DNA of 39,234 nucleotides, taken from the IMG/VR virus record IMGVR_UViG_3300042731_003895, positions 1 through 39,234 of that record. One strand, written 5' to 3'. Numbering within the stretch: the first letter of the stretch is position 1; every line of letters starts with the position of its first letter. Of the stretch, positions 1 to 24,828 are shown piece by piece. The notes under the pieces are model-generated. The model was not told where the DNA came from. It ran no database searches and worked only from the letters and a program-made list of their open reading frames with translations. A program made the translations under genes and the position numbers. Source of the stretch: a virus.

Positions 1-1
1 G

Positions 2-127
2 TGGGATCGCATACCTGATGACACCAAGCGGGATATCATCGAGAAGATCCTCAGTCGAGTGAGAAAAGAGGTTAAGCCGATCATACTAAAAAGGGTCGTG
101 CGTGATAAACTTGCATCACGTCAATAA
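2..127 (+). CDS. C-terminal end of an unidentified protein (partial)
   Basis: The first base of the window lies inside an open frame that reads 41 residues and stops with TAA at 125-127. The visible tail is basic and rich in Lys/Arg/Ile (it contains DIIEKILSRVRKEVKP and ends KLASRQ). No family can be named from this fragment. It is 11 bases upstream of the radical SAM gene on the same strand, so the two probably share a transcript. The start lies outside the window. Confidence 0.6.
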   Translation, partial: WDRIPDDTKRDIIEKILSRVRKEVKPIILKRVVRDKLASRQ

Positions 128-138
128 CGGAGAGGCCA

Positions 139-1107
139 ATGATCACAGAGAGAATCGATGCCATTACCGGCATCCCTGAAGACTACCTCACCACCACGCC
201 GCCGGCGCCGAAGTCGGTCAAGATAGAACTGAGCCCTCGCTGTAATCTGTCTTGTGGATTCTGCGCACTGCGCACCAGGAGACAGCAACCGAAGAATGAT
301 ATGGATCTTGATCTGTTCAAGCGGATCACCCTCGAGATGCGTGAGGTCGGCGTAGAGGAGATCGGGGTTTTCTATCTGGGTGAGTCGTTCATGAACCCAG
401 TGCTGCTTGAGGATGCCGTGCGCTACTTGAAGCGGGAGCTGGAATTTCCCTATGTGTTCTTGACCAGCAACGCCACGCTGGCTAAACCGGATATCGTGGC
501 CAGGGTCATGGGTGCCGGGCTTGATTCCCTGAAATGGTCCGTCAACGCAGCTGATCCACAGCAGTTCAAAGACATCATGCTGTCAAAACCGATCCTCTTT
601 TACCGTGCGCTGGAGAATATCAAGCGAGCCTGGGACGTACGCAATATCTGCAATTTCAACACCAAGCTCTATGCCTCATCAATACAGTTCGACGGCGAGC
701 AAGGAGAGAGAATGCTGCAGATGGTCAATAAAGAAGTGAAGCCATACGTCGACCAGTGGTATGAACTGCCGCTGTACGGTATGAGCATGCTACAGAAGGA
801 CGTGGAGAAGCGTATTGGGTACAAGCCCACCCACGGCAACATGGGCAGGATCGGCGGTCTGAGAGATCCACTGCCGTGCTGGAGCGCGTTCACCGAAGGG
901 CATGTCAGGTATGACGGCCATTTGTCGGTTTGCTGCTTCGGGTCAGATGACAAGTTCGATGCCGGTGACCTGAAGACGCAGGCGTTCATGGAAGCCTGGC
1001 ACAGCGAGAAATTCCAACAGATCCGCGCCGCTCAGCTGGCGACCCGGGAGCAAGGACCCAAAGCGCTGGAAGGAACCATGTGCCAAGTGTGTGTGGTATC
1101 AGAATGA
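139..1107 (+). CDS. Radical SAM protein with Cys-rich (SPASM-like) C-terminus
   Basis: 322 aa. The Cx3CxxC motif that binds the radical-SAM 4Fe-4S cluster is at C35, C39 and C42 (CNLSCGFC). Radical SAM enzymes use this cluster to cleave S-adenosylmethionine and start radical chemistry. Further cysteines near the C-terminus (CW..., VCCFG, and a final CQVC) resemble a SPASM or twitch domain that would hold auxiliary clusters, as in peptide- or sugar-modifying members. A Shine-Dalgarno GGAGAGG precedes the ATG. The substrate cannot be deduced. The phage also encodes two glycosyltransferases and a methyltransferase (22242-24828), so a role in modifying a sugar, virion protein or host surface is possible but is inference. 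It overlaps the next small ORF by ATGA. Confidence 0.85.
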   Translation: MITERIDAITGIPEDYLTTTPPAPKSVKIELSPRCNLSCGFCALRTRRQQPKNDMDLDLFKRITLEMREVGVEEIGVFYLGESFMNPVLLEDAVRYLKRELEFPYVFLTSNATLAKPDIVARVMGAGLDSLKWSVNAADPQQFKDIMLSKPILFYRALENIKRAWDVRNICNFNTKLYASSIQFDGEQGERMLQMVNKEVKPYVDQWYELPLYGMSMLQKDVEKRIGYKPTHGNMGRIGGLRDPLPCWSAFTEGHVRYDGHLSVCCFGSDDKFDAGDLKTQAFMEAWHSEKFQQIRAAQLATREQGPKALEGTMCQVCVVSE

Positions 1108-1214
1108 ATGATCTTGATGATCTCATCCGGGAACTGACTGACCTGCTTCTTAGGATAGCCATACTCGGCGGCTATGTCCTGGTCATCACCCTGTTCGTTC
1201 ACATCCTGAAATAG
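1104..1214 (+). CDS. Small single-pass membrane protein
   Basis: 36 aa, too short for routine ORF calling. The ATG overlaps the TGA of the radical SAM gene (ATGA), a translational-coupling arrangement. After an acidic start (MNDLDDLIREL) there is one hydrophobic segment of about 20 residues (LLLRIAILGGYVLVITLFV), so it is predicted to sit in the inner membrane. Function unknown. A coupled lysis or superinfection role is possible, but nothing in the sequence supports a specific one. Confidence 0.5.
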   Translation: MNDLDDLIRELTDLLLRIAILGGYVLVITLFVHILK

Positions 1215-1223
1215 GAGGCCATT

Positions 1224-1265
1224 ATGGGCTGCAAGAAAGGCAAGGGCGGCGGTCGTCGCAAGTAA
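1224..1265 (+). CDS. Possible 13-residue Lys/Gly/Arg-rich micro-ORF
   Basis: MGCKKGKGGGRRK, preceded by a near-perfect Shine-Dalgarno (AGGAGG) six bases before the ATG. It ends immediately before the A-run and hairpin at 1264-1289. The strong ribosome site is the only reason to list it. It could be a real micropeptide or a leftover of a longer gene. Confidence 0.3.
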   Translation: MGCKKGKGGGRRK

Positions 1266-1289
1266 AAAAAGGCCCCCAACACGGGGGCC
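1264..1289 (-). terminator. Rho-independent terminator of the head-gene operon
   Basis: GGCCCCC and GGGGGCC form a 7-bp stem around the loop AACAC (1271-1289). On the minus strand the stem is followed by seven T (1270-1264). It lies just past the last minus-strand head gene (stop at 1322) and matches an intrinsic terminator for that operon. Read on the plus strand there is no T tract, so it should stop rightward transcription less well. Confidence 0.85.
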
Positions 1290-1321
1290 AATATGGAGCG
1301 CACGGAGAGAGAGGGTTGTTG

Positions 1322-1738
1322 TTATGTGTCGGTCGAGTAGGTCGCGGCCACGCGCATCAGGGTCGCGGTACCAGACCCAACGCTCACAGCGGCGAAGGTA
1401 ATATCCAGCGTATCATCCGCCGAATACTCATACCCCATTCCACCAGCCGCGCTGGTCATCTGCTTCACGGTAGAGGCCGCAGATAGCGAGATCGAGGTAA
1501 TGTAGCGGTCGGGATCACCCCCATCACCCACGGTCACAGTACCCACGATAGCGCCGCCGTCATTCGCTCCGGAGAGCTTCACGTCCAGCATCTTGGCGCC
1601 GCTAGGCACCTTGCAAACCTGAACCACATCGTTGGCGGTAACAGAGGTCAGCGAGACCTGCTTCACGATGCTGACAACACCAAGACCTTCACGGGGCGGG
1701 CTGGTCGATTGTGCAGCGGTTCCAGTAATAGTAGCCAT
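1322..1738 (-). CDS. Small virion protein downstream of coat (head decoration or fibre candidate)
   Basis: 138 aa, rich in Ala, Val, Thr, Ser and Gly, with a beta-rich look and no membrane segment. It is the last gene of the head operon, 12 bases after the coat protein, with a Shine-Dalgarno GGGAGG. In phages with N4-type coat proteins this slot usually holds a small capsid-associated or head-fibre protein. That role is inferred from position and composition only. Confidence 0.6.
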   Translation of the reverse strand: MATITGTAAQSTSPPREGLGVVSIVKQVSLTSVTANDVVQVCKVPSGAKMLDVKLSGANDGGAIVGTVTVGDGGDPDRYITSISLSAASTVKQMTSAAGGMGYEYSADDTLDITFAAVSVGSGTATLMRVAATYSTDT

Positions 1739-1750
1739 AATGGACCTCCC

Positions 1751-2809
1751 TTAGGACTTGGTAGTGTAGGTGGGGCAGATGATGGTTCCAAAATCCTTGG
1801 AATTAAACCGACATTTCTTTGCCCCCCAGATCGCGCCAGCCGCCACGCCGAGCTTGTTGTCGTAGTCGAACGCCTTCTCTTTCCAGGAGAACTTGTTCGG
1901 CCCGTTGCCTTTGGCGAATGCCACAGCACCGGCCTGTGCACCGCAGAAGATCGCACGCCGCACCTGGGTCTGACCCACACCGAGCGGTACACGGGTATTC
2001 TCATGCAGCACCACGCCGTTGTACATGCCCAGCGCACCGGTAAAGATTGGGTTCTTCGTCACCTGGCCGCCAGTCATTGCAGCCTTCAGGATATCCAGCC
2101 ACTGACCCGTGCTGGTATTGGTGCGCAGATCGTACACCTGGAACGGATGCAGGAAGGCCACGAAGTAGCTGCCGCCCTTGATCTTGATCGGGCGGATCAG
2201 CGGGCTGATGGTCTTGGCCTTGGCCACGAACTCATCGATAAGGCTGAGCTGGAAGATCGAGGACGCACCCGAGGAAGCCACATCGGCCTCAGAGGTATCG
2301 GAGTCAGGAAAAAAGTAATGGTCCGTATCAGAGGCGGCAATCGGATCGACCGCGGCCTGCATACCGGAATACTTGGTTGCAGCACTCGACACACCACCCA
2401 ACTGGTTGAAGAACGAGGTGTCGATACGATCTGCCCACCAGTCTGCCAACCCGTCTTTGGCCTCATCACGAGTGGAGTGATGTACGCGGTGTTCGCTCAT
2501 CGCACCCTTTGAGCGTACTGCATGGCGCAACTGATCCAGCCAGATCGAGTCGCTGTACGTCACCAGCGCCTCTTCGTTATCTTCGAGGGTGTTATCCCCG
2601 TCGATACCGTCCCCGGTCAACTGCATGCGTAGGCCGAAGGTGATCTTCTCACCGACCTTCTTGGCCTCTTCTTTGTATTGGATCATGGAGTCAGAGCCCT
2701 TCCCCATGAAGCGTAGCATGTCGGTCTTGGACAAAGCCTCTACGGCCAGCTTCTTCGACCAATGCTGGACTGCAAGCGCGTGGCCTACAGGATAGTTTGT
2801 TTCTGCCAT
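1751..2809 (-). CDS. Major capsid protein, N4 gp56 family
   Basis: 352 aa. The N-terminal third has the family's recognisable stretches: HWSKKLAVEALSKTDML, GEKITFGLRMQLTGDG, LRHAVRSKGAMSEHRV and LADWWADRIDTSFFNQLGG. This is an HK97-fold coat protein that assembles around the scaffold into the icosahedral head. Start choice: ATG at 2809 with Shine-Dalgarno GGGAGG. It follows the scaffold gene after a 111-base spacer containing an 11-bp perfect hairpin. That spacer may raise or stabilise coat mRNA relative to upstream genes. Confidence 0.9.
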   Translation of the reverse strand: MAETNYPVGHALAVQHWSKKLAVEALSKTDMLRFMGKGSDSMIQYKEEAKKVGEKITFGLRMQLTGDGIDGDNTLEDNEEALVTYSDSIWLDQLRHAVRSKGAMSEHRVHHSTRDEAKDGLADWWADRIDTSFFNQLGGVSSAATKYSGMQAAVDPIAASDTDHYFFPDSDTSEADVASSGASSIFQLSLIDEFVAKAKTISPLIRPIKIKGGSYFVAFLHPFQVYDLRTNTSTGQWLDILKAAMTGGQVTKNPIFTGALGMYNGVVLHENTRVPLGVGQTQVRRAIFCGAQAGAVAFAKGNGPNKFSWKEKAFDYDNKLGVAAGAIWGAKKCRFNSKDFGTIICPTYTTKS

Positions 2810-2876
2810 TGGCGGCCTCCCGTCATAGTTAAGATTCCATGACTTCTCGCCGCCAAGGCGCCCCTGGTATGTTTGT

Positions 2877-2906
2877 GCTAGTAGGGACGGGGTATTCCCT
2901 ACTAGC
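2877..2906. promoter_or_regulatory. 11-bp perfect hairpin between scaffold and coat genes
   Basis: GCTAGTAGGGA (2877-2887) pairs without mismatch to TCCCTACTAGC (2896-2906) around an 8-base loop. Neither strand has a following T run, so it is not a classical terminator. Its place just upstream of the coat gene suggests an mRNA-processing or 5'-stabilising element, or a partial terminator. Confidence 0.6.
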
Positions 2907-2920
2907 GTCTAGGGCAAAGT

Positions 2921-3937
2921 TTAGAGCATGGGGGAACGGAAGTCCACATCAGACATGAACGCACCCATGGCCTCCTCGAAACTTTCTTCGTCGCTAGTCG
3001 AGAGCTTTTCGAGTGACACGGCCTTACCACCAGAGCCATGCTGCTTGTTGCGCTGCTGGCCTTGCTCAATACGTTCGAGCTTTTCTGCGTTCGGGTTATC
3101 AGCAGGAGTCTGTTCAGGCTTCTTGAATCCGTGCCGTTCGGCAAGCTGTAGCACCATCATGGCCGGGTTCTGCCCTCTCATCGCCATGTTGATGCCGGCT
3201 ATCACTTCCAGATTCATGGCCTCGCTCAGGAACTGCTCTTCTGTACCCGCGCGTCCCCTTTCTTGCTGCTCCTTGACGTACTGCTGACGCAGGAACTTGA
3301 GCGCGTCGGGGTATTCCGGATTGGTCTGCCTGACCTTGGCCTCGGCCTGCTCGATCTGCGTGGTGACCTGGTTCAGGGTCTGATTGAACAACTGCTGTTC
3401 GTCCTGGGAGTCCACGCGCTTCTTGATGGCTTCCAGTTCTTCCTTCTGCGCAGATTCGCGTATCTCCTGGGCTGCGTTCGTCCATTTGTCGAAGCCCTCG
3501 ATATCCTCAACCGGGTCAGGCCTTGGACCCAGCTCGGCAATGCGCTCCTCGACCGTCTTGGGCTGCTGTGCGGGCTGCTGCTCAGGCGGCCTCTGAAAGC
3601 GCTCCACGACTTGCTGAAAGCGCTGCTCCATGTTGTGGATGGTGCGCTGCAGGTTCTGGTTCTGCTGCTGCAGGGCCTGGATAGTGGGCGGCTGGTCAGG
3701 TGCCGGCTTGTCAGATTCCTGGTCACCCTCCTCTGAGGTCTGCTCCTCCGCGGTAGACTCAGGCTTCGGCTCCACGTCCTTTGCCTGGATGTCTTCCTCC
3801 TCGCCGTGGTCGTCGTCACGGTAGAAGTCGTCCAGGCGCGAGGTCTCGTACTCCTCACCGTCAACGGTCCCTTGTTCCAGATCTACCTCTGGCTCCTGGC
3901 CTGCCAGGTCTGCCGCCATCTCTTCAGCTATGTTCAT
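2921..3937 (-). CDS. Scaffolding protein
   Basis: 338 aa, strongly acidic N-terminal third (runs of E and D), then Gln- and Pro-rich helical and coiled-coil sequence with repeated EQRFQQVVERFQ and QQLFNQTLNQV type stretches. This composition and the slot between portal and coat genes are typical of internal scaffolds that guide procapsid assembly and then leave. The reading frame is open upstream to 4078, but the start at 3937 (MNIAEEMAADL) is chosen because AGGAGAG lies upstream and the longer form would run through the preceding gene. No protease signature is seen next to it. Confidence 0.75.
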   Translation of the reverse strand: MNIAEEMAADLAGQEPEVDLEQGTVDGEEYETSRLDDFYRDDDHGEEEDIQAKDVEPKPESTAEEQTSEEGDQESDKPAPDQPPTIQALQQQNQNLQRTIHNMEQRFQQVVERFQRPPEQQPAQQPKTVEERIAELGPRPDPVEDIEGFDKWTNAAQEIRESAQKEELEAIKKRVDSQDEQQLFNQTLNQVTTQIEQAEAKVRQTNPEYPDALKFLRQQYVKEQQERGRAGTEEQFLSEAMNLEVIAGINMAMRGQNPAMMVLQLAERHGFKKPEQTPADNPNAEKLERIEQGQQRNKQHGSGGKAVSLEKLSTSDEESFEEAMGAFMSDVDFRSPML

Positions 3938-3962
3938 CTCTCTCTGATCTCTCCTGTGTGGG

Positions 3963-4346
3963 TTAAAAGGCTCGGCGTCCTCCCATGCGCTGCTGGAGCA
4001 TTTGCATGAACCGGTTCCGATCCATGGCGCCCTGCTGCTCAGGGTTACCCCGGGCTGCTGAATTGGGTGAGTAACCACCCATGTTCTGGTTCATCGGCCC
4101 CTGGCCCGGCATCATGCGCTGTCTGGCTTGGTGTTGCGGCATCGGGCTGGCTGGCTGCATCTGCCCGCCAGGCGGCATTGGGATGGCTGCTGGGCTCATC
4201 GCAGCACCCGGGCCTTGCGGCTGGGCCTGTGGCTGACCACCGCCTTGCATCATGCGTTGCATGAGTATATTGCGGATCATGGCCTGGAGCTGCGGGTTCT
4301 GCATCATCTGCTGTTGCATGTTCCCGCCGAATGGTTGGTTGTACAT
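3963..4346 (-). CDS. Met/Gln/Pro-rich low-complexity protein in head operon
   Basis: 127 aa made almost entirely of Met, Gln, Pro, Gly and Asn (for example MQQQMMQNPQLQAM, and a C-terminal MLQQRMGGRR). No domain is recognised; it is probably disordered. It lies between portal and scaffold with an upstream AGGGG ribosome site and is collinear with the head genes, so an assembly cofactor or minor virion part is plausible. Confidence is in the gene, not a role. Confidence 0.6.
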   Translation of the reverse strand: MYNQPFGGNMQQQMMQNPQLQAMIRNILMQRMMQGGGQPQAQPQGPGAAMSPAAIPMPPGGQMQPASPMPQHQARQRMMPGQGPMNQNMGGYSPNSAARGNPEQQGAMDRNRFMQMLQQRMGGRRAF

Positions 4347-4373
4347 AGTGATTACCCCTATAGGCTGTTAATA

Positions 4374-6248
4374 CTACGGCATGATGCCGGTTGACTGCAA
4401 AATCTTGTTTTCTATGTCAGTTTGCTCTGCCTCTGCCTGCTTCTTCTCTGCGCTGGCCGCGACCTCCATGGCCTTGGCTTCCCGCTCGTCCGCCATGCCT
4501 TTCATCAGCCGTTCCTGATTCGGATCAGGCTTGGCTTGTGCGTCCTGGATGTACTGCAGCCACTCCTCGATCAGCTTCTCCGGGAACGGCGTGTATCGCA
4601 ACAGGCTCGGCGGTATCGGCACGCCCATGCTCTGCAGGCTGGGCAAGAGTTCCGTCATGATCTGGAACACCCGGTCCTTCATGCTCGGGCTGGTCGGTGC
4701 CTCATCGATGATGATGTCATACTTCAGGCCGTCGGCATCGAACTGCAGCGGCTGGTACTCCTGGCCTTCGCTCGTAGTCACACGCACCAGGCGACCATCG
4801 TTCAGGTAATTGGTGATCAGGTGGGCCAGAATGCGGGCTTGCTGCTTGCGGTAGCGTCTCATCGCATCAAAAGCCCAGGCGATGTTGTTCAGCGCTGACT
4901 GCTTGCGGGTGGTCTCCACGATGCCGGCTTGATCCTTGCCGGCCAGACCCAGGATCTCCAGGTTGAGCCCAGTGACATCGGGGAAGGATTGAATCGCGAA
5001 CTGCAGCAGCCGGTCGATCCCGTTCGGGTAGGCGCCGACCGGCTTTTCTTTGACCTTGTTAAGTCCGCCGGGGTTGAGCCATGAGACCGCTGTCGGGTTG
5101 GCCCAGGTCTCCTCGAGCTTCTTCGGGTCGTCGGTTGCGTCTTCCTCGGCCACCAGTCCGCCTTTGCCAATGCTCATCATGATGTCGAGCAGGGTGGACA
5201 AAAACACATTGGCCCAGGTCTGGGGGTCCTTCATGGGCCGGATGAACCCGTAGAACACGCCCTTGACCTCGTCATACTTGCCGGTCACCGCGGACATGGA
5301 GAACTCACGCTCGCAGGGTGCGGGGCCATCTTCGAGCAGATGACCGCCGACCACATAGGCTTGCTGTACGACTTTGCGTTTCTGGCGGATGGCTTTGTGT
5401 GGCGTACCCATGGCCAGGTACTGCTCTTTCAGGATCTCCCACTCCTTCGGATCATACTCCTCGATACCTTCCTGCGTGGCCACCCGCATGATGGCTTTAT
5501 ATTTGATGTACTGGTAGCGTGCCACCCAGATCGTCTTTCTGTCGTCTCGCTTGCCGCTGCCGGTTTCGTCTGTCAGGTACTCGTCAATTCCTGACTTGTC
5601 GATCGACATCGATGATTGCGGGCTTTCCATGTCCTTATCCCAAGGTCCCTTCAGGTTCTGCCCGTCCAGGTCCGCCTCCGGCCACTGCTGCTGGATCTCA
5701 TCCATGGACATATCGTCCAGGTACAGATCCCAGCGCCGATCAGTCAGGTTGCGCTTGGTTGCCCGGGTATCGTACCGAATGCGGAACGGATCGCGGCGAG
5801 TGATATCCCCCATGCCGTCAGGATCTTCGGTGTAGTTGATGGTCGTGTCGATCCAGCCCAGGCCGGTGGTCAGCATGTCGGTGAATGCATGTGATTCTTC
5901 GTCCTCTGCGTCCGTCTCGTCCCTGACCCATTCCGCGGCACCACCTAGCAGATCATGCGGTACTGGCTTACCGGGCACGCGCTTAATGTATCGCGCCTCC
6001 TTGCGGTTGCTGATCTCCATACCAAGGACGGCATCGACAAATGGCCCCGTCCGGTTGAACGTGAGCGCTGGCCGCTCGAGCGCGTCGAGCTTCAGCTTGT
6101 CCTCTTCACTCCACTGGTGACCGTGCCGGATACGGGTCGCCTCCCTGGCTTCTTCGTCCCAGTCTCTGAGGTCTTCGGTGCTGGCCCGGTAATCGTCGTG
6201 GATGCGCTTTACCAGATCATCAAGTTCTTTGTCTTCCTCAAGGTCCAT
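4374..6248 (-). CDS. Portal protein (P22 type)
   Basis: 624 aa, within the size range of P22-like portals. Recognisable features: N-terminal FNRTGPFVDAVLGMEISNRKE, a DPFRIRYDTRATKRNLTDRRW stretch, and FYGFIRPMKDPQTWAN in the middle, all typical of this portal family. The C-terminal 60 residues are a charged helix (ADEREAKAMEVAASAEKKQAEAEQ), like the P22 barrel helix. Twelve copies would form the DNA channel at the unique capsid vertex and dock terminase during packaging. It overlaps the upstream 61-aa gene by 11 bases. Confidence 0.85.
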   Translation of the reverse strand: MDLEEDKELDDLVKRIHDDYRASTEDLRDWDEEAREATRIRHGHQWSEEDKLKLDALERPALTFNRTGPFVDAVLGMEISNRKEARYIKRVPGKPVPHDLLGGAAEWVRDETDAEDEESHAFTDMLTTGLGWIDTTINYTEDPDGMGDITRRDPFRIRYDTRATKRNLTDRRWDLYLDDMSMDEIQQQWPEADLDGQNLKGPWDKDMESPQSSMSIDKSGIDEYLTDETGSGKRDDRKTIWVARYQYIKYKAIMRVATQEGIEEYDPKEWEILKEQYLAMGTPHKAIRQKRKVVQQAYVVGGHLLEDGPAPCEREFSMSAVTGKYDEVKGVFYGFIRPMKDPQTWANVFLSTLLDIMMSIGKGGLVAEEDATDDPKKLEETWANPTAVSWLNPGGLNKVKEKPVGAYPNGIDRLLQFAIQSFPDVTGLNLEILGLAGKDQAGIVETTRKQSALNNIAWAFDAMRRYRKQQARILAHLITNYLNDGRLVRVTTSEGQEYQPLQFDADGLKYDIIIDEAPTSPSMKDRVFQIMTELLPSLQSMGVPIPPSLLRYTPFPEKLIEEWLQYIQDAQAKPDPNQERLMKGMADEREAKAMEVAASAEKKQAEAEQTDIENKILQSTGIMP

Positions 6249-9127: not shown

Positions 9128-9664
9128 ATGAACGAAATCAGAACAGAAGACCATCCCGCCTACCAAGTCCTTCCTCCATTGAATAGAGTAGTCCAGCGTG
9201 ATTGCTTCCAGGGCCTCTCCAAGGAAGCTGAAGACCAGATCATCCAGCAGGCCATCGAGATACTGAATCGCCGCATGGGTGAGCCTGGAACCGCGATTAC
9301 ATCGCCGCAGGCATCCAAAGACTACTTACGGCTGAACCTGGCTGATAAAGAGCGTGAGCATTTCGCGGTGTTGTTCCTGGATAATCAGAATCGTGTGCTG
9401 GGTAGGCCGACTGTGCTATTTTCAGGGACCGTGGACAGCGCCTCGGTACATCCCAGGATCATCGTGAAAGCCGCACTCGAGGCGAACGCCAATGCCGTCA
9501 TATTATGCCACAACCACCCCTCCGGTGACACTTCGCCATCGAATGCTGACAGAGCGATTACGGCCAGGCTGAAGGATGCGCTGGCGCTGATCGATGTGCG
9601 GGTGCTGGATCACATCATCGTGGGCCGAGATGCCTATTCATTCGCAGAGGGAGGGCTGCTGTGA
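9128..9664 (+). CDS. radC: RadC-family JAMM/MPN protein
   Basis: 178 aa. The JAMM metal motif is H128-N-H130-P-S-G-D with D141 completing HxHx10D, preceded by VLFLDNQNRVL typical of RadC (DUF2466). The N-terminal helix-hairpin-helix part of chromosomal RadC is largely missing, as is usual for phage and island copies. The biochemical role of RadC proteins is unsettled; phage and island copies often sit near anti-restriction or recombination genes. Ribosome site GAGGTGAATC. Its stop overlaps the next gene's GTG. Confidence 0.85.
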   Translation: MNEIRTEDHPAYQVLPPLNRVVQRDCFQGLSKEAEDQIIQQAIEILNRRMGEPGTAITSPQASKDYLRLNLADKEREHFAVLFLDNQNRVLGRPTVLFSGTVDSASVHPRIIVKAALEANANAVILCHNHPSGDTSPSNADRAITARLKDALALIDVRVLDHIIVGRDAYSFAEGGLL

Positions 9665-9929: not shown

Positions 9930-9976
9930 ATTATGTGGCTGGCACGTATATCGGAATATACAGCCGGCCACATAAT
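9930..9976. repeat. Long imperfect inverted repeat at the end of the cassette array
   Basis: A 22-base arm starting ATTATGTGGC (9930-9951) pairs with a 21-base arm (9956-9976) around a 4-base loop, with few mismatches and one bulge. Neither strand has a T run, so it is not a standard terminator. It directly follows the R'' core GCATAAC (9988-9982, minus) of the last cassette gene and is best read as a terminal attC-like stem whose R' core is lost. Confidence 0.5.
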
Positions 9977-9982
9977 CACCTG

Positions 9983-10234
9983 TTATGCACATAGCCTCAT
10001 TAGGTTATGTACGCCTCTTCCACGCTTGCCGTTCCTGGCGATATATTTGCCAGTTCCAGGCCAAAAATCTATCAGCCAATCTTTACCAGTAACGATTAAA
10101 TGAGCGCCGCCGTTCTTGCTCTCAAACGGTATGCCTTTTCCTTGCAGCAAAGCAGCAGAACTATTCCTGTTCCTTTCTCGCCGTTCCTTACTCTCTTGCT
10201 TCATTGCGTTGAAAATTTCACCCATGTCACCCAT
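9983..10234 (-). CDS. Cassette-borne hypothetical protein
   Basis: 83 aa. Start chosen at 10234 (MGDMGEIFNAM) because GAGGAG lies upstream; the open frame runs further up through the attC-like site. The N-terminus is charged (KQESKERRERNR). The rest has a beta-rich pattern (GGAHLIVTGKDWLIDFWPGTGKYIAR) seen in many small phage and mobile-element proteins of unknown role. The stop TAA sits inside the core GCATAAC, the hallmark of an integron cassette gene. Confidence 0.6.
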   Translation of the reverse strand: MGDMGEIFNAMKQESKERRERNRNSSAALLQGKGIPFESKNGGAHLIVTGKDWLIDFWPGTGKYIARNGKRGRGVHNLMRLCA

Positions 10235-10249
10235 GTCAAACTCCTCTGT

Positions 10250-10309
10250 GCATAACCAGCACATCCAGGCGATGGCAAAAAGCGCCACGCCTGATGGCGG
10301 TCGTTATAA
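10250..10309 (-). repeat. attC-like recombination site 7
   Basis: 60 bp. Minus strand: R'' core TTATAAC (10309-10303), which contains the stop of the upstream cassette gene, and R' core GTTATGC (10256-10250). The arms pair well: GCATAAC...CCAGGCG against TTATAAC...TCAGGCG. Spacing and symmetry fit the short (about 60 bp) class of integron attC sites. Confidence 0.7.
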
Positions 10310-10615
10310 GTCGTCGTTTGCTTCACGTATTTGCTCTTTCAGCGACAAGCCACCGAGCGTATAACAGCCATTCAGTTCTTCAATAGCCATAGATAAATCA
10401 TTGCATTCTTCGCAAAGATATTTAGATGCTAAATCTTTTTCATCACCATTTTCGTCATACCCGCAACGCGCAATTTCTTGACACTCTGCGCCTATATCAA
10501 TTAACTGTTTGCAGTTAAGGCAACGCTGTCTTCGCTTTAAATCAAAAGGCTTTGGTTCTCCATGCTTCCACCATGTCCATTCAAATTCGACTGTATCACA
10601 ACTACATAAACTCAT
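10304..10615 (-). CDS. Cassette-borne Cys-rich putative zinc protein
   Basis: 103 aa. Cysteine pairs: CSC near the start, CLNC and later CEEC, plus single Cys, giving a zinc-ribbon-like pattern. Start chosen at the ATG at 10615 (MSLCSCDTVEF), with AAAGGTG upstream. AT-richer than the phage core, as expected for a foreign cassette. The stop TAA lies in the attC core TTATAAC. Function unknown. Confidence 0.6.
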   Translation of the reverse strand: MSLCSCDTVEFEWTWWKHGEPKPFDLKRRQRCLNCKQLIDIGAECQEIARCGYDENGDEKDLASKYLCEECNDLSMAIEELNGCYTLGGLSLKEQIREANDDL

Positions 10616-10634
10616 TGTCGTCACCTTTAAAAAT

Positions 10635-10696
10635 TTATAACAAATCGCTAGTTCGGAACTCCGCTGCGCTACGTCCGCACAGCTTTGCCGTTATAT
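10635..10696 (-). repeat. attC-like recombination site 6
   Basis: 62 bp. Minus strand: R'' ATATAAC (10696-10690), containing the stop of the 93-aa gene, and R' GTTATAA (10641-10635). The centre carries CGCTGCGCTACGTCCG-type sequence, common in attC stems. Arm pairing is moderate. Confidence 0.65.
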
Positions 10697-10972
10697 TTCA
10701 CCAATCGCCGCCAGTTCTTTTTCGAGTTCTGCTTTTCTGGCAGCTTTTAGGTGTCTATCGCTCTCGCTACCTAGGCGAATCCCGAGCACAGCTCTGAATA
10801 TCTTCCAATCATTTTTTTCATTCATGCAGCTGTATTTATTTTCCGCATCTTCCAGTGGCATTTGCGCGGCTGAATCTATATCACCGGTTAAAATGGCAGA
10901 GCCAAGATATAGGTTTTGCTCTTTGAAGTATTGCCCGCTTTTGTGCTGTAGGACATACATTTTTTTGCTCAT
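10691..10972 (-). CDS. Cassette-borne hypothetical protein
   Basis: 93 aa. Start at MSKKMYVLQHKSGQYF (10972), with GGAGTCAGAT upstream. It has a beta-rich first half and a charged helical C-terminus (HLKAARKAELEKELAAIGEI). No family recognised. Its stop is embedded in the attC-like core ATATAAC. Confidence 0.6.
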   Translation of the reverse strand: MSKKMYVLQHKSGQYFKEQNLYLGSAILTGDIDSAAQMPLEDAENKYSCMNEKNDWKIFRAVLGIRLGSESDRHLKAARKAELEKELAAIGEI

Positions 10973-10993
10973 ATCTGACTCCATAAAAATAAA

Positions 10994-11056
10994 ATATAAC
11001 AATGGCTTTAACTCAGATCCTCGCTTCGCTCGGCCTGGTTAAGCCAAGCGTTAGCC
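10994..11056 (-). repeat. attC-like recombination site 5 (best defined)
   Basis: 63 bp. Minus strand: R'' GGCTAAC (11056-11050), L'' TTGGCTTAACC, a centre CCGAGCGAAGCGAGG, L' GAGTTAAAGCCA, and R' GTTATAT (11000-10994). L'' and L' pair almost completely with one extra base on one side, the asymmetry typical of attC. The stop of the MazG-like gene lies in R''. Confidence 0.8.
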
Positions 11057-11392
11057 AGCTTGGTGATGTAGGTACGAATGAACAGCAGTCATTTTTTCCA
11101 TCACCCTGTTTTCGATGTCGTCTTCTTCGAAGTCACCGGCATTCAGCATCAATTCTAGTGCTAGTTGCACATCGCCAATTTCGCGGACAAGTGCCTGTCT
11201 ATTTGTAGGGCCGCTTGGCCTGTTCGGGTGTGTGCTTTCATATCCGTGTCGCAGTATCTTGCCGATCGCCTGCTGTGCTTCTCCAAGCTCCTCCAGTAGT
11301 AGCGCCAGGCGCTCTGCTTGGGCTGGGCTAAGTTGGTTGAAGTGCTGGCTAACCAGCACATCAACCGGATTCACTTCATTCGCTGCGCTCAT
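11051..11392 (-). CDS. MazG-like nucleotide pyrophosphohydrolase (cassette-borne)
   Basis: 113 aa. LLLEELGEAQQAIGKIL followed by LVREIGDVQLALELM reproduces the ExxE...ExxD metal-binding pattern of the all-alpha MazG/dUTPase superfamily, which hydrolyses NTPs or dNTPs to monophosphates. MazG-type proteins are known cargo of integron cassettes and of phages, where nucleotide-pool or ppGpp effects are proposed. Ribosome site GGAGAACGAA before the ATG. The stop TAA sits in the attC core GGCTAAC. Confidence 0.7.
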   Translation of the reverse strand: MSAANEVNPVDVLVSQHFNQLSPAQAERLALLLEELGEAQQAIGKILRHGYESTHPNRPSGPTNRQALVREIGDVQLALELMLNAGDFEEDDIENRVMEKMTAVHSYLHHQAG

Positions 11393-11751
11393 TTCGTTCT
11401 CCGGTTAAATTGGCGTTACATGGCGCGCCTAACGTCGGCAGCGCGCCCCCGCTCTTTCTTCCTCCACCCTTAGCCGTCTCGGGGTGGCAGTCATATTTGG
11501 AGCGGTTCGCCGATCCGATGCCGGGTTACCAAGTAGCTCAAGGCCTTCAAAACTTGCCCGCTCCATTCGTGTATTCAGTGCCGTCTCTCCGGCTGTCACG
11601 CACTCGTTATTCACACTGTTGCTTGCCGTGCCTACTAGGGCTGGCTCATGCTGGGCGGTGTACGTTTAGCCCTCTGCTCTGTTCTGATGCGCCATGTAAC
11701 CAGGCACATCAGCGGGGATCTCGCTATCGCTCGATCCCCTGTGTTTCATCG
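11393..11751. other. Cassette segment without a convincing gene
   Basis: 359 bases between the MazG-like and Lar-like genes. Most is bounded by candidate attC sites at 11424-11530 and 11693-11757. A 61-codon minus ORF (11429-11614, GTG start) ends with TAG inside GTTAGGC, but its composition (Arg-rich tail, no ribosome site) is unconvincing. This may be a non-coding or decayed cassette, both of which occur in integrons. Confidence 0.4.
11424..11530 (-). repeat. Possible attC-like site 4 (long form)
   Basis: R' core GTTAGGC (11430-11424, minus) matches the GTTRRRY consensus perfectly. A possible R'' GGTAAC lies at 11530-11525, with arms CCGGCATCG and CTGCCGACG giving partial pairing. At 107 bp it would be one of the longer sites. 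Only the R' side is clear. Confidence 0.4.
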
Positions 11752-11757
11752 TTATCT
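11693..11757 (-). repeat. attC-like recombination site 3
   Basis: About 65 bp. Minus strand: the Lar-like gene's stop lies in AGATAAC; a 7-bp perfect inner stem GGGGATC/GATCCCC follows; R' GTTACAT is at 11700-11694. Cores are less canonical than at sites 5 and 7. Confidence 0.5.
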
Positions 11758-12003
11758 AGCCTTACCGTTCCGCATGTTCCACCTATCAATAGCGGCCTCT
11801 TTGCTGGCTGATGGTACTTGTTGAATGGCACACGTTCCGCCCCTGTTTATCGTGTTCCGGCAAACAACACCCCACCATCTTCGTTTCCCGTATATCGGGT
11901 CTATTGTTGACTCCGCCTCTTCCAGCGCTACAGTCCCGCCACAAAATGGGCAGGCTAACAACGGCATCAACTCTGACGCCTCATTCTTCGCTTCTCTCAT
12001 CAT
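11752..12003 (-). CDS. Lar-like restriction-alleviation zinc protein (cassette-borne)
   Basis: 83 aa from the ATG at 12003 (an in-frame TTG allows up to 128 aa, and an ATG at 11967 gives a shorter form). LLACPFCGGTVALEE and a later VVCRNTINRGGTC provide the paired cysteines of the Lar family, and the end SKEAAIDRWNMR matches the family's EAIxxWNxR signature. Lar proteins of the Rac prophage relieve type I restriction by modulating host modification. The start is uncertain because a weaker attC-like site overlaps the 5' end. The stop is in AGATAAC. Confidence 0.65.
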   Translation of the reverse strand: MMREAKNEASELMPLLACPFCGGTVALEEAESTIDPIYGKRRWWGVVCRNTINRGGTCAIQQVPSASKEAAIDRWNMRNGKAR

Positions 12004-12030
12004 TCTTATCCGGTTATGCCAGCCGTTATG
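11953..12030 (-). repeat. Possible attC-like site 2 (overlaps Lar-like gene start)
   Basis: Minus strand: GCATAAC (12030-12024), TGGCATAACC and later GTTGATGCC and GTTAGCC (11959-11953). L'' and L' pair 8 of 9. However, the Lar-like reading frame passes through it, which is unusual for a cassette, so it may be partly coincidental. Confidence 0.35.
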
Positions 12031-12190
12031 CGGCACTCGCATCATGTCGGCAACGGTATCTGGTCTGCCCGCGTACATCCAGGTAGGGTTGCGCCTTGTT
12101 GCAATGCGGTGCGGCCAGGTCAAATATTTTGTATTCAATTCGGTCTATTCCGTTCTTCCAGTCTGGGGAAATATGCTCGCGCAACGTGCC

Positions 12191-12276
12191 GCATAATAAA
12201 TCGGTCAAGGCGACGCTTCGCGTCGCGGTGGCTTTATCTGGCTTCATCGTGGCGCGCCTTAACTAATCCGTTAGGC
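12191..12276 (-). repeat. attC-like recombination site 1
   Basis: 86 bp. Minus strand: R'' GCCTAAC (12276-12270), a perfect RYYYAAC core containing the stop of the 87-aa gene; L'' side TTAGTTAAGG; a centre with the palindrome GCGACGCTTCGCGTCGC; L' CCTTGACCGA; and a degenerate R' ATTATGC (12197-12191). Outer arms match 13 of 20. It resembles attC sites of mobile integrons in layout. Confidence 0.7.
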
Positions 12277-12534
12277 CTCCAAAACCGTTACGTCATAGCC
12301 GTGCAAATGGAAATCACCAAGTCCGCCGCTATCGATTATGATCCGGCGCTTTCCGTCGTACAGCGTTACCTGTGTTCCGTCGTCGCGCTCCACCATTTCG
12401 GTGGGAACTCCTACACAGTCAAGGAATAGGGTCATAGCGAAAATGTTGTCCCCACTTTGTGCTGGGTCTGTAATGCTGTAGCTGCGCTCACCGTTATCAA
12501 AAAGCTCTTCGGTGGATTCTGGGATGTCATACAT
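12271..12534 (-). CDS. Cassette-borne hypothetical acidic protein (first cassette)
   Basis: 87 aa. Start ATG at 12534 (MYDIPESTEELFDNG), with GGAGGTTGAT upstream. Acidic and beta-rich (GTQVTLYDGKRRIIIDSGGLGDFHLHGYDVTVLEA). No family recognised. It begins 14 bases after the GTTAGGC core at 12554-12548 and ends in the attC core GCCTAAC, exactly the layout of an integrated cassette. Confidence 0.6.
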   Translation of the reverse strand: MYDIPESTEELFDNGERSYSITDPAQSGDNIFAMTLFLDCVGVPTEMVERDDGTQVTLYDGKRRIIIDSGGLGDFHLHGYDVTVLEA

Positions 12535-12547
12535 ATCAACCTCCAAT

Positions 12548-12554
12548 GCCTAAC
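12548..12554 (-). other. Lone GTTAGGC recombination core at array boundary
   Basis: Minus strand GTTAGGC, a perfect GTTRRRY core, coincides with the TAG stop of the outer-membrane-like gene 12550-13017. No attC-type stem precedes it. It marks the 5' end of the cassette run and could be a secondary (attG or attI-like) insertion point. Confidence 0.5.
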
Positions 12555-13017
12555 GAAGCCGCTCAATAACGACCGACAGACCCGCGGCGCCTTCGTTGTT
12601 GGGGATGACTGACAGCCTAAGACTGACGCAGTCCGTCAACTGATACTGGCCGAACAGCGTTCCCATAGGGGAGATGGTCTGATCGGTCAGTTCATCGTAG
12701 CCCGTCGCTATTCCCAGCTGACCACCCACCGACAGCCCTCTCCACTCGCTACTTCTGACCTCTCCGCCAATGATGAAGGAGGTCTCCTCATACGTGTTGC
12801 GGTAGGCTCCACCAACGATCGACCAATGGTCAGAGATGCTGTGTGCGTAAAACAGGCCCGGGTTGGTCTCGTTGTAGGTCAGGTCTTCGTCCTTGTTGTA
12901 ATGCCTTGACCCGATGCTAATCTGCAGCTCGTCAGACTCTGCGGTCGGTAGCGCGAACAGTATCAACACGCCAACCGCCATGGCGACCAGTGCGATCATT
13001 TTCTCTCTGCGGCACAT
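12550..13017 (-). CDS. Putative exported beta-barrel protein
   Basis: 155 aa. A signal peptide (MCRREKMIALVAMAVGVLILFALPTA, cleavage likely near SDELQ) is followed by alternating beta strands (WSIVGGAYRNTY, SFIIGGEVRSSEW, LSVGGQLGIATGY, GTLFGQYQL, LRLSVIP) ending in a basic residue. This is the pattern of a small outer-membrane barrel or periplasmic beta protein. Similar phage-encoded proteins may alter the host surface, possibly excluding other phages; that is inference. AGGAG precedes the ATG. Its stop overlaps the GTTAGGC core. Confidence 0.6.
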   Translation of the reverse strand: MCRREKMIALVAMAVGVLILFALPTAESDELQISIGSRHYNKDEDLTYNETNPGLFYAHSISDHWSIVGGAYRNTYEETSFIIGGEVRSSEWRGLSVGGQLGIATGYDELTDQTISPMGTLFGQYQLTDCVSLRLSVIPNNEGAAGLSVVIERLR

Positions 13018-21335: not shown

Positions 21336-21521
21336 ATGGCAAGAAAACGAATTGTTGAAATCATGATCGATCGGATCAACGCAAGCGGGCTGAGTCGGCG
21401 TGAGCTGTGCGAGCGTGCCGGTGTCTCCAAGTCCTGGCTGGATCGTGTCATGCAGAGAAAGAAGACCAACATCATGACAGATCAGGTTCAGGCGATCATT
21501 GATGTGCTGGATAAGGTTTAA
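21336..21521 (+). CDS. Small HTH (Cro-like) regulator
   Basis: 61 aa. MIDRINASGLSRRELCERAGVSKSWLDRVMQRKKTNIM is a helix-turn-helix of the XRE/Cro class, with a short C-terminal helix. It is divergent from the repressor candidate. Its stop TAA lies in GTTTAAC, the R'' core of attC-like site 12, so this regulator itself looks cassette-linked. Confidence 0.75.
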   Translation: MARKRIVEIMIDRINASGLSRRELCERAGVSKSWLDRVMQRKKTNIMTDQVQAIIDVLDKV

Positions 21522-21573
21522 CGTTTGAAGTGTGCGGCGAGCGCAGCGAGTCCACACGACTGACTTGTTATGC
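21516..21573 (+). repeat. attC-like recombination site 12 (plus orientation)
   Basis: 58 bp. R'' GTTTAAC (21516-21522, perfect RYYYAAC) overlaps the HTH stop. GTGTG/CACAC arms surround GCGGCGAGCGCAGCGAG. R' GTTATGC is at 21567-21573. Orientation is opposite to the arrays at 9979-12554 and 18666-18988. Confidence 0.7.
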
Positions 21574-21648
21574 GTAAGACACTGTAATTCCTGTGATAGT
21601 TTATCTGAGGATATGTAAAGAAAACAGACCGGTATGGAAAGTTTACAC

Positions 21649-21918
21649 ATGAGAAAGAAGATAGTTTGCCGAGAAGTTGATTGCCAAGGTGCGCCTGGAT
21701 GCCCCTGCATGAAACCGGAATATTGGGAACGTTGGAAGTTTGAACGGCTGCATGACAAACAGGAATTGTATGATTTAGCCAGCGACCTGCTGCAAGAACT
21801 ACAAGTATGCCGGAAGTTTATCGGTAGCCGGGAACGGATGCACTTAGATGGTTTAGCGATGCTGGATGAGCTGATAGCAAATAGCGCCACAGTGATTGAA
21901 CGCAAGTGGGACGTATAA
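21649..21918 (+). CDS. Cassette-borne Cys-rich hypothetical protein
   Basis: 89 aa from MRKKIVCREVDCQGAPGC (GGAAAG upstream; an ATG 15 bases earlier is possible). CREVDCQGAPGCPC near the start may bind metal. The rest is helical (LYDLASDLLQELQVCRKFIG, LDELIANSATVIE). The stop TAA is inside the attC core GTATAAC. It lies between two attC-like sites, a complete cassette. Confidence 0.6.
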   Translation: MRKKIVCREVDCQGAPGCPCMKPEYWERWKFERLHDKQELYDLASDLLQELQVCRKFIGSRERMHLDGLAMLDELIANSATVIERKWDV

Positions 21919-21968
21919 CACGGAAATAATTCGTGAGCGCAGCGAATCTGATTATTGATCGGTTAAAC
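21913..21968 (+). repeat. attC-like recombination site 13 (plus orientation)
   Basis: 56 bp. R'' GTATAAC (21913-21919), AATAATTCG and CGAATCTGATTATT arms, centre TGAGCGCAG, R' GTTAAAC (21962-21968; perfect GTTRRRY). Arms pair with an unpaired TG on one side, as in genuine attC hairpins. Confidence 0.75.
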
Positions 21969-22056: not shown

Positions 22057-22242
22057 ATGGCAAGACCAAAGCATTCCGTCGAACTGACCATCAACACCAG
22101 GCGCGAGAAGTATGTTGAGGGCACTTACCAGAAGCCGATCGCGGCTGATGCTAGCAAGCGGGAAAAGGTTCGTCGTAACCTCGGCAGAATCGCAGAGCGC
22201 CGGCGGATGAAGTCTGAAATTTGCGATCCCTGGGAGGTTTGA
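22057..22242 (+). CDS. Small basic protein
   Basis: 61 aa, Lys/Arg-rich (MARPKHSVELTINTRREKYV..., KREKVRRNLGRIAERRRMK). The stop overlaps the next ATG. A hairpin (CCCCCGA/TCGGGGG, about 21997-22033) lies in its leader. Possibly nucleic-acid-binding; no family recognised. Confidence 0.5.
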   Translation: MARPKHSVELTINTRREKYVEGTYQKPIAADASKREKVRRNLGRIAERRRMKSEICDPWEV

Positions 22243-23630
22243 TGTTAGAGCACTTCACCATGCAAGAAGCGGCTGAAACACTGAAGGCCGGCGATCTCAA
22301 GCGAGCCGAGCAGATGTTCAAGGCCGCGGCAGGCCAGAACCCAGACGACTGGTTTCCCTGGTTCAACCTGGCCAGTATCGAGGGGCAGCGAAACAACACC
22401 GTCACAGCCATGGCGTTTCTATACCGGGCCCTAAGCCTGAACCCTGATGAGACCGCTATCCTGAACAACCTCGGTACCCTGCTGCGCATGGAGCACCATG
22501 TCGACAAGGCCAAGGAGGTTTTCCTCGAGGGCGCGCAGCGCAAGCCGGATGACCCTGACCTCTGGAGCAACCTATCCACCCTGTACGTGAACGAGGGCAA
22601 CCCGGAGCTGGGCCTGGAATATGCCGAAAAGGCCCTCGCGCTGAAACCGGATCACGTCAATGCTGGCTGGAATCGAGCGCTGCTGCTGCTGGAATGCGGG
22701 CGCCTCGAGGAAGGATTCGAGGCCTACGCAGCGGGCGTGCATACCGGGGAGCGGATGGAGCGCTGGCGGTCGATCCCCTACTACAACCCAGAGACCGATC
22801 AGGACAAGGTGGTACTCACCTATGGCGAGCAGGGCCTGGGCGATGAAATCATGTATCTGTCGGTGCTGGATTATCTGGTCAACAATAGCGGGTCAGTGAT
22901 CTACGAGTGCCACCCCAGACTCGAGTCGCTGGTGAAACGCTCATTCCCGTATGTCACCGTCTACCCCACGAGGAAAGATATCGTTCTCGACTGGGAGGAG
23001 CCGTTCGACGTTAAGATCCCAATCGGTGATCTGCCAAAATATTGGCGCAGGAAGCCTGCTGATTTTCCTCGGAAGCCCTACCTGGTGGTCGACCCAGCTA
23101 TTGAGGCGCAGATGCGCGCACGCCTCCAGCAGCGAGCGGGTGATGGGCCTTACGTGGGCATCGCCTGGAAGGGTGGCTACAAGAAGACACGCAAGGACCT
23201 GCGCTCCATGCCGCTGGAGGACCTGCTGCCGGTGATCCGGGCAGCTCATGAGTCAGGCGCCAAGCTGGTCTCTTTCCAGTACACAAAGGACGCTGAGATG
23301 GAGGTCAGGCAGTTCGAGCGTAAACACGGGATACGGATACACCACTGGCCAGACGTGATCTGCGGCAATACGGACTACATGCTGACCGCGGGGCTCCTGG
23401 CCAACATGTACCAGACCATTGCCGTGAATACTTCCCTGGTCCACTTGGCCGGCGCCCTGGGCTGCCCGCTGTGGACGATGACGCCAAAGGGTTGCGCCTG
23501 GCGCTACTGGTCACCAGACAACAAGATGCTGTGGTATGACAGCGTAATCCAATACCGGGCCGGCGAAAACAAAACCTGGGCGCCCGTCATCGAGCGGCTG
23601 GCCAATGACCTGAGAGAGAAACTGAAATGA
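22242..23630 (+). CDS. TPR-domain glycosyltransferase
   Basis: 462 aa. The N-terminal ~160 residues are TPR repeats (AETLKAGDLKRAEQMFKAAA, NLASIEGQRNN, GLEYAEKALALKPDHVNAGWN). The C-terminal part has GEQGLGDEIMYL, VGIAWKGGYKKTRKDLRSM and VNTSLVHLAGALGCPLWTM, the signatures of a GT-B (heptosyltransferase/OGT-like) fold. Start ATG at 22242, coupled to the upstream stop, with GGGAGG before it. Likely transfers a sugar to protein or surface glycan together with the next two genes. Confidence 0.8.
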   Translation: MLEHFTMQEAAETLKAGDLKRAEQMFKAAAGQNPDDWFPWFNLASIEGQRNNTVTAMAFLYRALSLNPDETAILNNLGTLLRMEHHVDKAKEVFLEGAQRKPDDPDLWSNLSTLYVNEGNPELGLEYAEKALALKPDHVNAGWNRALLLLECGRLEEGFEAYAAGVHTGERMERWRSIPYYNPETDQDKVVLTYGEQGLGDEIMYLSVLDYLVNNSGSVIYECHPRLESLVKRSFPYVTVYPTRKDIVLDWEEPFDVKIPIGDLPKYWRRKPADFPRKPYLVVDPAIEAQMRARLQQRAGDGPYVGIAWKGGYKKTRKDLRSMPLEDLLPVIRAAHESGAKLVSFQYTKDAEMEVRQFERKHGIRIHHWPDVICGNTDYMLTAGLLANMYQTIAVNTSLVHLAGALGCPLWTMTPKGCAWRYWSPDNKMLWYDSVIQYRAGENKTWAPVIERLANDLREKLK

Positions 23631-24145
23631 ATACCATTTCCGAAGAATACCGAAAACTGAACACGCAGCTCCACGAGGAGCGGCCAGACTATGGCGCTGG
23701 TTCATGGAGACCATTTGCGCAGATGATCATCGAAATGTGCAAATCTCTCAACACCAATGACATACTTGATTATGGCTGCGGCAAGGGTGGGCTTGCCATG
23801 GCGCTGCCGATGGCTGATGTCACGAACTACGACCCGGCGATCGAAAAATGGTCAGCCGAGCCCGAGCCCCATGATGTAGTGGTTTGCACCGATGTGGCCG
23901 AGCATGTCGAGCCGGAGTTCACCAATGCGTTTCTGGATGACCTGGTTCGCGTAACCAAGCGCACGCTGATCCTCACAGTCAACACAGGTCTTGCCGTCAA
24001 GGAACTCCAGGACGGGCGCAATGCACATATCAACATTAAAGAGCCGATCGAGTGGCTGTTCGAATTGACCGATCGGTTCGAACTGATCTCCTACAACAAG
24101 ACCAGCGGAGCCCAGTTTCTCTGCGTCCTACAGCCCAAACAGTAA
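23627..24145 (+). CDS. SAM-dependent methyltransferase
   Basis: 172 aa. DILDYGCGKGGLAMALPMAD is motif I (SAM binding) and VVVCTDVAEHVEPE matches motif II of class I methyltransferases. The small size and sugar-gene neighbours suggest a sugar or small-molecule acceptor rather than DNA. Starts inside the stop of the previous gene (ATGA). Confidence 0.8.
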   Translation: MNTISEEYRKLNTQLHEERPDYGAGSWRPFAQMIIEMCKSLNTNDILDYGCGKGGLAMALPMADVTNYDPAIEKWSAEPEPHDVVVCTDVAEHVEPEFTNAFLDDLVRVTKRTLILTVNTGLAVKELQDGRNAHINIKEPIEWLFELTDRFELISYNKTSGAQFLCVLQPKQ

Positions 24146-24147
24146 TT

Positions 24148-24828
24148 ATGCTTAGAATCTTCATTGGTTACGACGAGATCGAGTCCCTGGCCTATCACGT
24201 CCTGGTGCAGTCGATCATAAAACACACACGCCACCCGGTCGCAATAACGCCGCTCAAACTGTCGATGCTGCCCATGTTCGATCGCCCCAAGGCACAGGAG
24301 CAGTCGAACGAGTTCACCTACTCACGCTTCCTGGTTCCTTTCCTGTCTGGCTACCAGGGGGTCTCGATCTACATGGACTGCGACATGATGCTACGCTGCG
24401 ATATCCAGGGGTTGCTGATGCACTGCGATCTCAGCAAGCCTGTGTGCTGTGTCAAGCATGACTATACGCCCAAGCAGACCACCAAGTACCTCGGGAACAA
24501 ACAGGAGGCATATCCCAGAAAGAACTGGTCCAGCCTGATGGTGTTCAACAACGCCAAATGCAGGAACTTGACCAAGGAATATGTGGAGTCAGCCGCCCCC
24601 GCCGATCTCCACCGCATGAGCTGGACTGACGAGGTGGGCGGCATTCCGCTGGAATGGAACCACCTGGTCGGTGAGTATGAGCCAAACCCCAAGGCAAGAC
24701 TGGCCCACTGGACAAATGGAGGGCCGTGGTTCTCTGGCTATGAAAACGCCGAGTTCGCCAATGAGTGGTTCCAGTTGTTTTGGGATACTACGAACGTAGT
24801 AGACAGAACCGCTCTGCTGCGTGGCTGA
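24148..24828 (+). CDS. GT8-like glycosyltransferase
   Basis: 226 aa from MLRIFIGYDEIESLAYHVL. YSRFLVPFLSGYQGVSIYMDCDMMLRCDI carries the DxD metal/nucleotide-sugar motif (DCD) of GT-A retaining transferases, and WTNGGPWF resembles the C-terminal motif. It starts two bases after the methyltransferase stop. Operator O5 lies inside its 3' end. The three-gene block probably builds a modified glycan. Confidence 0.75.
   Translation: MLRIFIGYDEIESLAYHVLVQSIIKHTRHPVAITPLKLSMLPMFDRPKAQEQSNEFTYSRFLVPFLSGYQGVSIYMDCDMMLRCDIQGLLMHCDLSKPVCCVKHDYTPKQTTKYLGNKQEAYPRKNWSSLMVFNNAKCRNLTKEYVESAAPADLHRMSWTDEVGGIPLEWNHLVGEYEPNPKARLAHWTNGGPWFSGYENAEFANEWFQLFWDTTNVVDRTALLRG
24786..24801. promoter_or_regulatory. Operator candidate O5 (TACTAC-GAAC-GTAGTA)
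   Basis: Perfect 6-4-6 inverted repeat within the 3' end of the GT8-like gene, 53 bases before TATAAT at 24854. The spacer GAAC is shared with O1 and O2. It may control the tail operon. Confidence 0.55.

Follow-up and report, generated by a model that had tools for sequence, protein, structure and literature searches.

The window analyzed here comprises the whole of IMG/VR record IMGVR_UViG_3300042731_003895 (39,234 bases, classed as linear). Profile matches identified a podovirus-type portal (phrog_156), an Erf-like protein, and an exonuclease among its products. Most of the early genes are on the minus strand, from approximately 21 kb down to 9.98 kb, and the 3′ end of this block, after a PagP-like gene, is formed by a cluster of approximately eight small genes. 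Their stop codons lie within RYYYAAC boxes, and their starts follow or fall within a site that is partly palindromic and closes with a GTT box. This layout confirms part of a sequence-only reading of the same DNA: the genes are small, unrelated, and on the minus strand, each has its stop in an RYYYAAC box, and the site that follows is 59 to 86 bp long and ends in a GTT box. That reading had also noted an AT-richer composition; GC content is 49.4% in the cluster and 54.5% over the window as a whole, a modest contrast given the 51.2% of the neighboring early region.

The PagP-related gene (12550 to 13017; phrog_3600, lipid A acylation) belongs to the early operon and lies directly upstream of the array. 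At the opposite end, the array is adjoined by a gene for a RadC-like JAB domain protein (9128 to 9664, plus strand), and a long inverted repeat (ATTATGTGGCTGGC...GCCGGCCACATAAT; 9933 to 9975), possibly the operon terminator, is located just past the last cassette. Elsewhere in the window, a radical SAM-like gene (139 to 1107) and a block of TPR, methyltransferase-like, and glycosyltransferase-like genes (22221 to 24828) were recognized by reading the sequence only, and a protein made of repeated SASAAVETRINTLSGSMAGSDSSLDARI-type units is encoded at 28205 to 29194. At gathering thresholds, Rfam gave no match in the window. No plasmid DNA similar to the array was found, and similar phage DNA was limited to short matches. 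The closest phages by terminase, at approximately 50%, share too little for a comparison with an empty site, which was rejected for this reason.

Sites were scored with R1, a covariance model trained on nine attC sites from class 1 integrons in plasmid arrays and on no phage sites; its E values are rough owing to a short calibration. The features of the first cluster are as follows.

9981 to 9987, minus strand: lone R box (GTTATGC on the plus strand), array 3′ end, holding the c1 stop codon (sequence)
9983 to 10236, minus strand: c1, phage-type protein (ORF; phrog_27571, E 2e-4), likely start ATG near 10236
10250 to 10309, plus strand: attC upstream of c1 (R1 32.2 bits, E 1.4e-6; fold z −3.8)
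10304 to 10624, minus strand: c2, no assigned function (ORF)
10635 to 10696, plus strand: attC upstream of c2 (R1 18.1 bits, E 0.014)
10691 to 11002, minus strand: c3, no assigned function (ORF)
10994 to 11056, plus strand: attC upstream of c3 (R1 18.6 bits, E 0.01)
11051 to 11392, minus strand: MazG-type pyrophosphohydrolase (PF03819, E 7e-6; phrog_4856, 5e-16)
11347 to 11421, plus strand: attC-like site with the RBS and ATG of MazG (boxes and arms only)
11422 to 11693, minus strand: no convincing ORF, perhaps a cassette that lacks a gene (sequence, ORF list)
11694 to 11757, plus strand: attC-like site just downstream of Lar (boxes; fold z −2.4)
11752 to 12003, minus strand: Lar-like restriction alleviation protein (PF14354, E 1e-5, just under the cutoff; phrog_599, 2e-10)
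11953 to 12031, plus strand: attC with the RBS and ATG of Lar (R1 19.3 bits, E 0.006)
12026 to 12247, minus strand: c7, no assigned function (ORF), start inside its own attC
12191 to 12276, plus strand: attC with the c7 start (R1 33.9 bits, E 5e-7)
12271 to 12546, minus strand: c8, no assigned function (relatives in other arrays)
12548 to 12554, minus strand: R-box-like junction (GTTAGGC on the minus strand) where the PagP-like gene stops, array upstream end (sequence)

Relatives of c1 were detected by tblastn in Pasteurella, Vibrio, and Pseudomonas phages. A relative of c2 (78% identical) is present in L047, beside an attC of the same polarity, and c8 has relatives in the L048 array (82% identical) and in L049 and L050 (75%), with none found in genome_contigs. 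A c3 relative (75%) lies outside any cassette in L039, with no attC, directly after a DNA polymerase gene (2249 to 5014 of that sequence), within which an intein seems, by eye, to be present. PADLOC identified no defense family among the window cassettes.

Detection and folding of the attC sites

R1 recovers the plasmid attC sites as well as two from phage TJE1. In the window it matched six sites at E values from 4e-8 to 0.014, distributed over two clusters, and the best match outside these clusters had an E value of 0.47. Five of the six (E ≤ 0.014) fall within 2.1 kb in the first cluster and include the three sites that had been singled out as clearest (10250 to 10309, 10994 to 11056, and 12191 to 12276). 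The sites at 11347 to 11421 and 11694 to 11757 are absent from the R1 list and are based on box and arm matching only. The remaining match belongs to a second cluster (21516 to 21968), with genes on the plus strand and sites on the minus strand:

21516 to 21573, minus strand: attC upstream of p94 (R1 37.6 bits, E 4e-8)
21634 to 21918, plus strand: p94, no assigned function (ORF), with no relative found in viral contigs
21913 to 21968, minus strand: weak attC-like site downstream of p94 (R1 12.0 bits, E 0.7; found independently by a box and arm scan)

A covariance-model search had been named as the check on an array, with a lack of any hit as the result that would speak against it; because R1, a model of our own, does match attC sites here, this objection falls away. 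The folding of single strands, also proposed as a check, gave a mixed outcome. As free DNA, two of the nine window sites folded clearly better than shuffles, 10250 to 10309 (z −3.8) and 11694 to 11757 (z −2.4), and class 1 control sites in the same test reached z −4.9 and −4.2. As most window sites fold poorly in this form, some may be decayed, and we do not claim that all are functional.

No match to the integrase profiles PF00589 or TIGR02249 was found in the record, which may be incomplete; without an integrase it does not hold a complete integron (intI with attI). A CALIN is a cluster of at least two neighboring attC sites lacking an integron integrase; with five R1 matches in 2.1 kb and no tyrosine recombinase, the array is formally of this kind. 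The cassette array of integron type in this podovirus-like genome is real. The sequence-only reading had considered such an array in a podovirus striking; the array is present, but integrase-less arrays in phages had already been published (PMC9892861).

Polarity of attC sites and genes

The R1 matches in the first cluster are all on the plus strand, and the genes are on the minus strand. Counting the second cluster, R1 lists seven window sites, every one of them antisense to the genes; the layout of a canonical array, in which gene and attC are co-oriented and attC follows the stop, was not found. No sense-strand match at these sites was listed up to an E value of 10. In controls (plasmids, L044, and TJE1), attC and gene are co-oriented, and opposite-strand scores are far below those of the true strand. 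The control sites are asymmetric, with an extra base in the arm after R″ and usually a C before R′. When the window sites are read in gene sense, the extra base sits in the wrong arm, and a G follows the stop-side box in eight of nine sites, the mirror of the usual C-GTT. Across a larger set, also read in gene sense, the G after the stop-side box is present in 31 of 34 phage sites and in none of 24 controls, and a C before the start-side box is present in none of the 34 phage sites and in 21 of the 24 controls (Fisher p about 1e-12 for a set in which the limits of some phage sites were set by eye, those from the same array are not mutually independent, and the controls are partly the R1 training sites).

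Since the R1 matches are antisense to the genes, the R″ and R′ assignments of the sequence-only reading were swapped. For the same reason, the attC that belongs to each gene is the one upstream of it; the proposal that the attC of a gene comes after it does not hold, as the site belongs to the gene downstream. The window ORFs are thus reversed in their cassettes. In L025, a full attC opens the array and a lone R box closes it, which mirrors the normal arrangement, and c1, at the end of the window array, likewise stops in a lone box. The DNA homology between c2 and its L047 relative extends from the stop-side box to beyond the start-side box, but the likeness of the two attC sites is within background and does not prove ownership; this pair therefore offers mild support, and the assignment of the upstream attC rests on the other points.

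In three cases (MazG, Lar, and c7), the reading frame opens within the upstream attC, which holds both RBS and ATG for MazG and Lar and the start only for c7. Residues 1 to 15 of MazG are attC encoded, and MazG relatives in other phages begin near EHFN, where this leader ends. Seven more genes start inside attC in L048 and L058, where Lar and methyltransferase homology begins after the attC-encoded part. Successive cassette proteins at 13186 to 14325 of L058 share an attC-encoded N-terminal motif of the PLERxVR type. The second cluster, the reverse-ORF cassettes, and the starts inside attC did not feature in the sequence-only reading.

An ordinary co-oriented array, in which the attC of each gene comes after it and the antisense score is a quirk of near-palindromes, would share the overlap of stop codons with the first box and the position of starts after the second, and canonical arrays do exist in phages (TJE1 and L020). 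We nevertheless consider this improbable given the missing sense-strand matches, the far lower opposite-strand scores of the controls, the base signature that fully separates phage sites from controls, and the start codons inside the upstream attC.

Related arrays in a bacterial integron and in other phages

A search of bacterial genomes for MazG identified L059, a 5.8-kb scaffold of a Desulfuromonadales metagenome-assembled genome that encodes an integron integrase (TIGR02249, 440.6 bits). At 1 to 3301, a canonical first cassette is followed by a reversed MazG ORF and then by another canonical gene. The L059 MazG is 64% identical to that of the window and, as in the window, its ORF is reversed with a strong attC (43.2 bits) immediately upstream; unlike the window, L059 is a complete integron with intI, and the neighboring cassettes are canonical. 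The direction here is independent of the attC model because it is fixed by intI and the neighbors, a further point against co-orientation. The sequences suggest that the same MazG cassette may have moved between the L059 lineage and phages, but 64% identity does not demonstrate recent exchange.

The reversed layout was also identified in L025, L047, L048, L058, L120, and L123, and the records checked carry portal, terminase, or head genes. In L117 (with L174 part of record G022, 28,430 bp, which has tape measure, tail, and major head genes), an integron integrase (4475 to 5467, plus strand) lies beside a reversed array that includes a Lar cassette. The sequence L096 (G027) also carries an integrase but was not accepted as a phage, as the two proteins tested matched no PHROG. 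In Pseudoalteromonas phage H101 (NC_029094; L179, 30900 to 32400), two R1 matches, one of them weak, are on the plus strand among minus-strand genes. By R1, H101 therefore shares the inverted polarity of the window; the array is called typical in PMC9892861, where its polarity is unreported.

To survey viral sequences, a gene-blind pattern scan followed by R1 yielded 102 sites, which were oriented heuristically by which ORF stops in the box: 50 were inverted, 13 canonical, and 39 unclear, or 18, 7, and 12, respectively, when counted by contig group. The same procedure classified 2 bacterial and plasmid sites as inverted, 24 as canonical, and 16 as unclear, in a small sample in which eight canonical sites come from L044, an IMG/VR record with a tyrosine recombinase. 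Relatives of c2, c8, and MazG (64 to 82%) occur in arrays of different composition, and no near-identical cassette was found. Cargo in other arrays includes methyltransferases (L025, a weak match, and L048), a nucleoside deoxyribosyltransferase-like protein (L048), and an exonuclease together with Lar (L117).

These arrays also bear on the idea that the sites are intergenic hairpins, acting as terminators or translation-coupling elements, with boxes that arise because stop codons favor TAAC. The positions between operon genes, the overlap of boxes with stops, and the missing integrase would fit, but a model trained on class 1 sites only reaches an E value of 4e-8 with a full-length alignment, a relative sits beside intI in a true integron (L059), and in L117, a phage contig, IntI occurs together with such an array. 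We regard this explanation as extremely improbable.

Proposed origin and significance of the reversed cassettes

Integrons are understood as arrays in which a gene is followed by its attC and is read from Pc. The cassettes of class 1 and chromosomal integrons (plasmids L021 to L024 and L044) resemble those of the window in their R boxes, unequal L arms, sites of approximately 60 bp, and tightly packed small genes; there, each gene precedes its own, co-oriented attC, whereas in the window attC precedes the gene. CALINs have been published in virulent phages (Qi et al. 2023, PMC9892861; e.g., TJE1 and PH101/H101). Like the window, these are attC arrays without an integrase in phage genomes, and both carry anti-restriction-type cargo, methyltransferases there and Lar here; Tetrasphaera phage TJE1 differs in that its sites are co-oriented with the genes. 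The unusual part lies in the reverse-ORF cassettes and the start codons inside attC, on neither of which a paper was found among the openly licensed PMC literature.

The cluster is probably an integrase-less set of reverse-ORF integron cassettes at the 3′ end of the early operon, captured via a host IntI. This is the best explanation of what was observed, namely, attC-type sites, antisense polarity, recurrence in phages, and a reversed MazG in an intI-bearing integron. At R′, IntI recombines attC as a folded bottom strand, with unpaired attC features setting insertion orientation (Nivina et al. 2016, as cited in PMC9892861), and recombination by IntI1 has been published for attC sites from phages other than this one, among them PH101 (PMC9892861). 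A phage would infect an integron-bearing host, whose IntI would act on attC as a folded single strand, in this case the gene-coding one. New cassettes would be added at the lone R box at the operon 3′ end (9981 to 9987), the likely insertion point, beyond which R1 found no attC. As attC lies upstream of the gene, a captured ORF would be read from a putative phage early promoter instead of the integron Pc, and translation may proceed from an RBS just behind attC or from an RBS and ATG inside it, the latter giving a short attC-encoded leader. Reversed ORFs would be kept because only these are read by an operon running toward the insertion point. The cargo may be useful to phages: here it includes MazG and the anti-restriction protein Lar, and arrays elsewhere carry DNA methyltransferases and an exonuclease.

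Capture through a host IntI need not imply continuing exchange, and the array could be a dead relic, acquired once via a bacterial integron and since decayed. The weak fold energies and low R1 scores at several sites and the lack of an integrase would be expected of such a relic, but the ORFs, RBS, and three strong attC sites are intact, and the occurrence of c2, c8, and MazG relatives (64 to 82%) in differently composed arrays is what past exchange would produce; we judge a relic rather unlikely. More tentatively than capture itself, and at somewhat below even confidence, we suggest that phages may keep their own pool of reverse-ORF cassettes, exchanged by IntI among phages and host integrons, in which attC would serve as a 5′ recombination and start module that lets a phage operon express the captured ORF.

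A second integron architecture, in which the gene is reversed and lies downstream of its attC, would be common among phages and occur in one or more bacterial integrons. It would constitute a pool of mobile genes that is read the wrong way round in standard annotation and would offer phages a way of gathering genes for anti-restriction and nucleotide metabolism. It would also bear on how ordinary genes become cassettes, as relatives of both MazG and c3 occur free as well as cassette borne.
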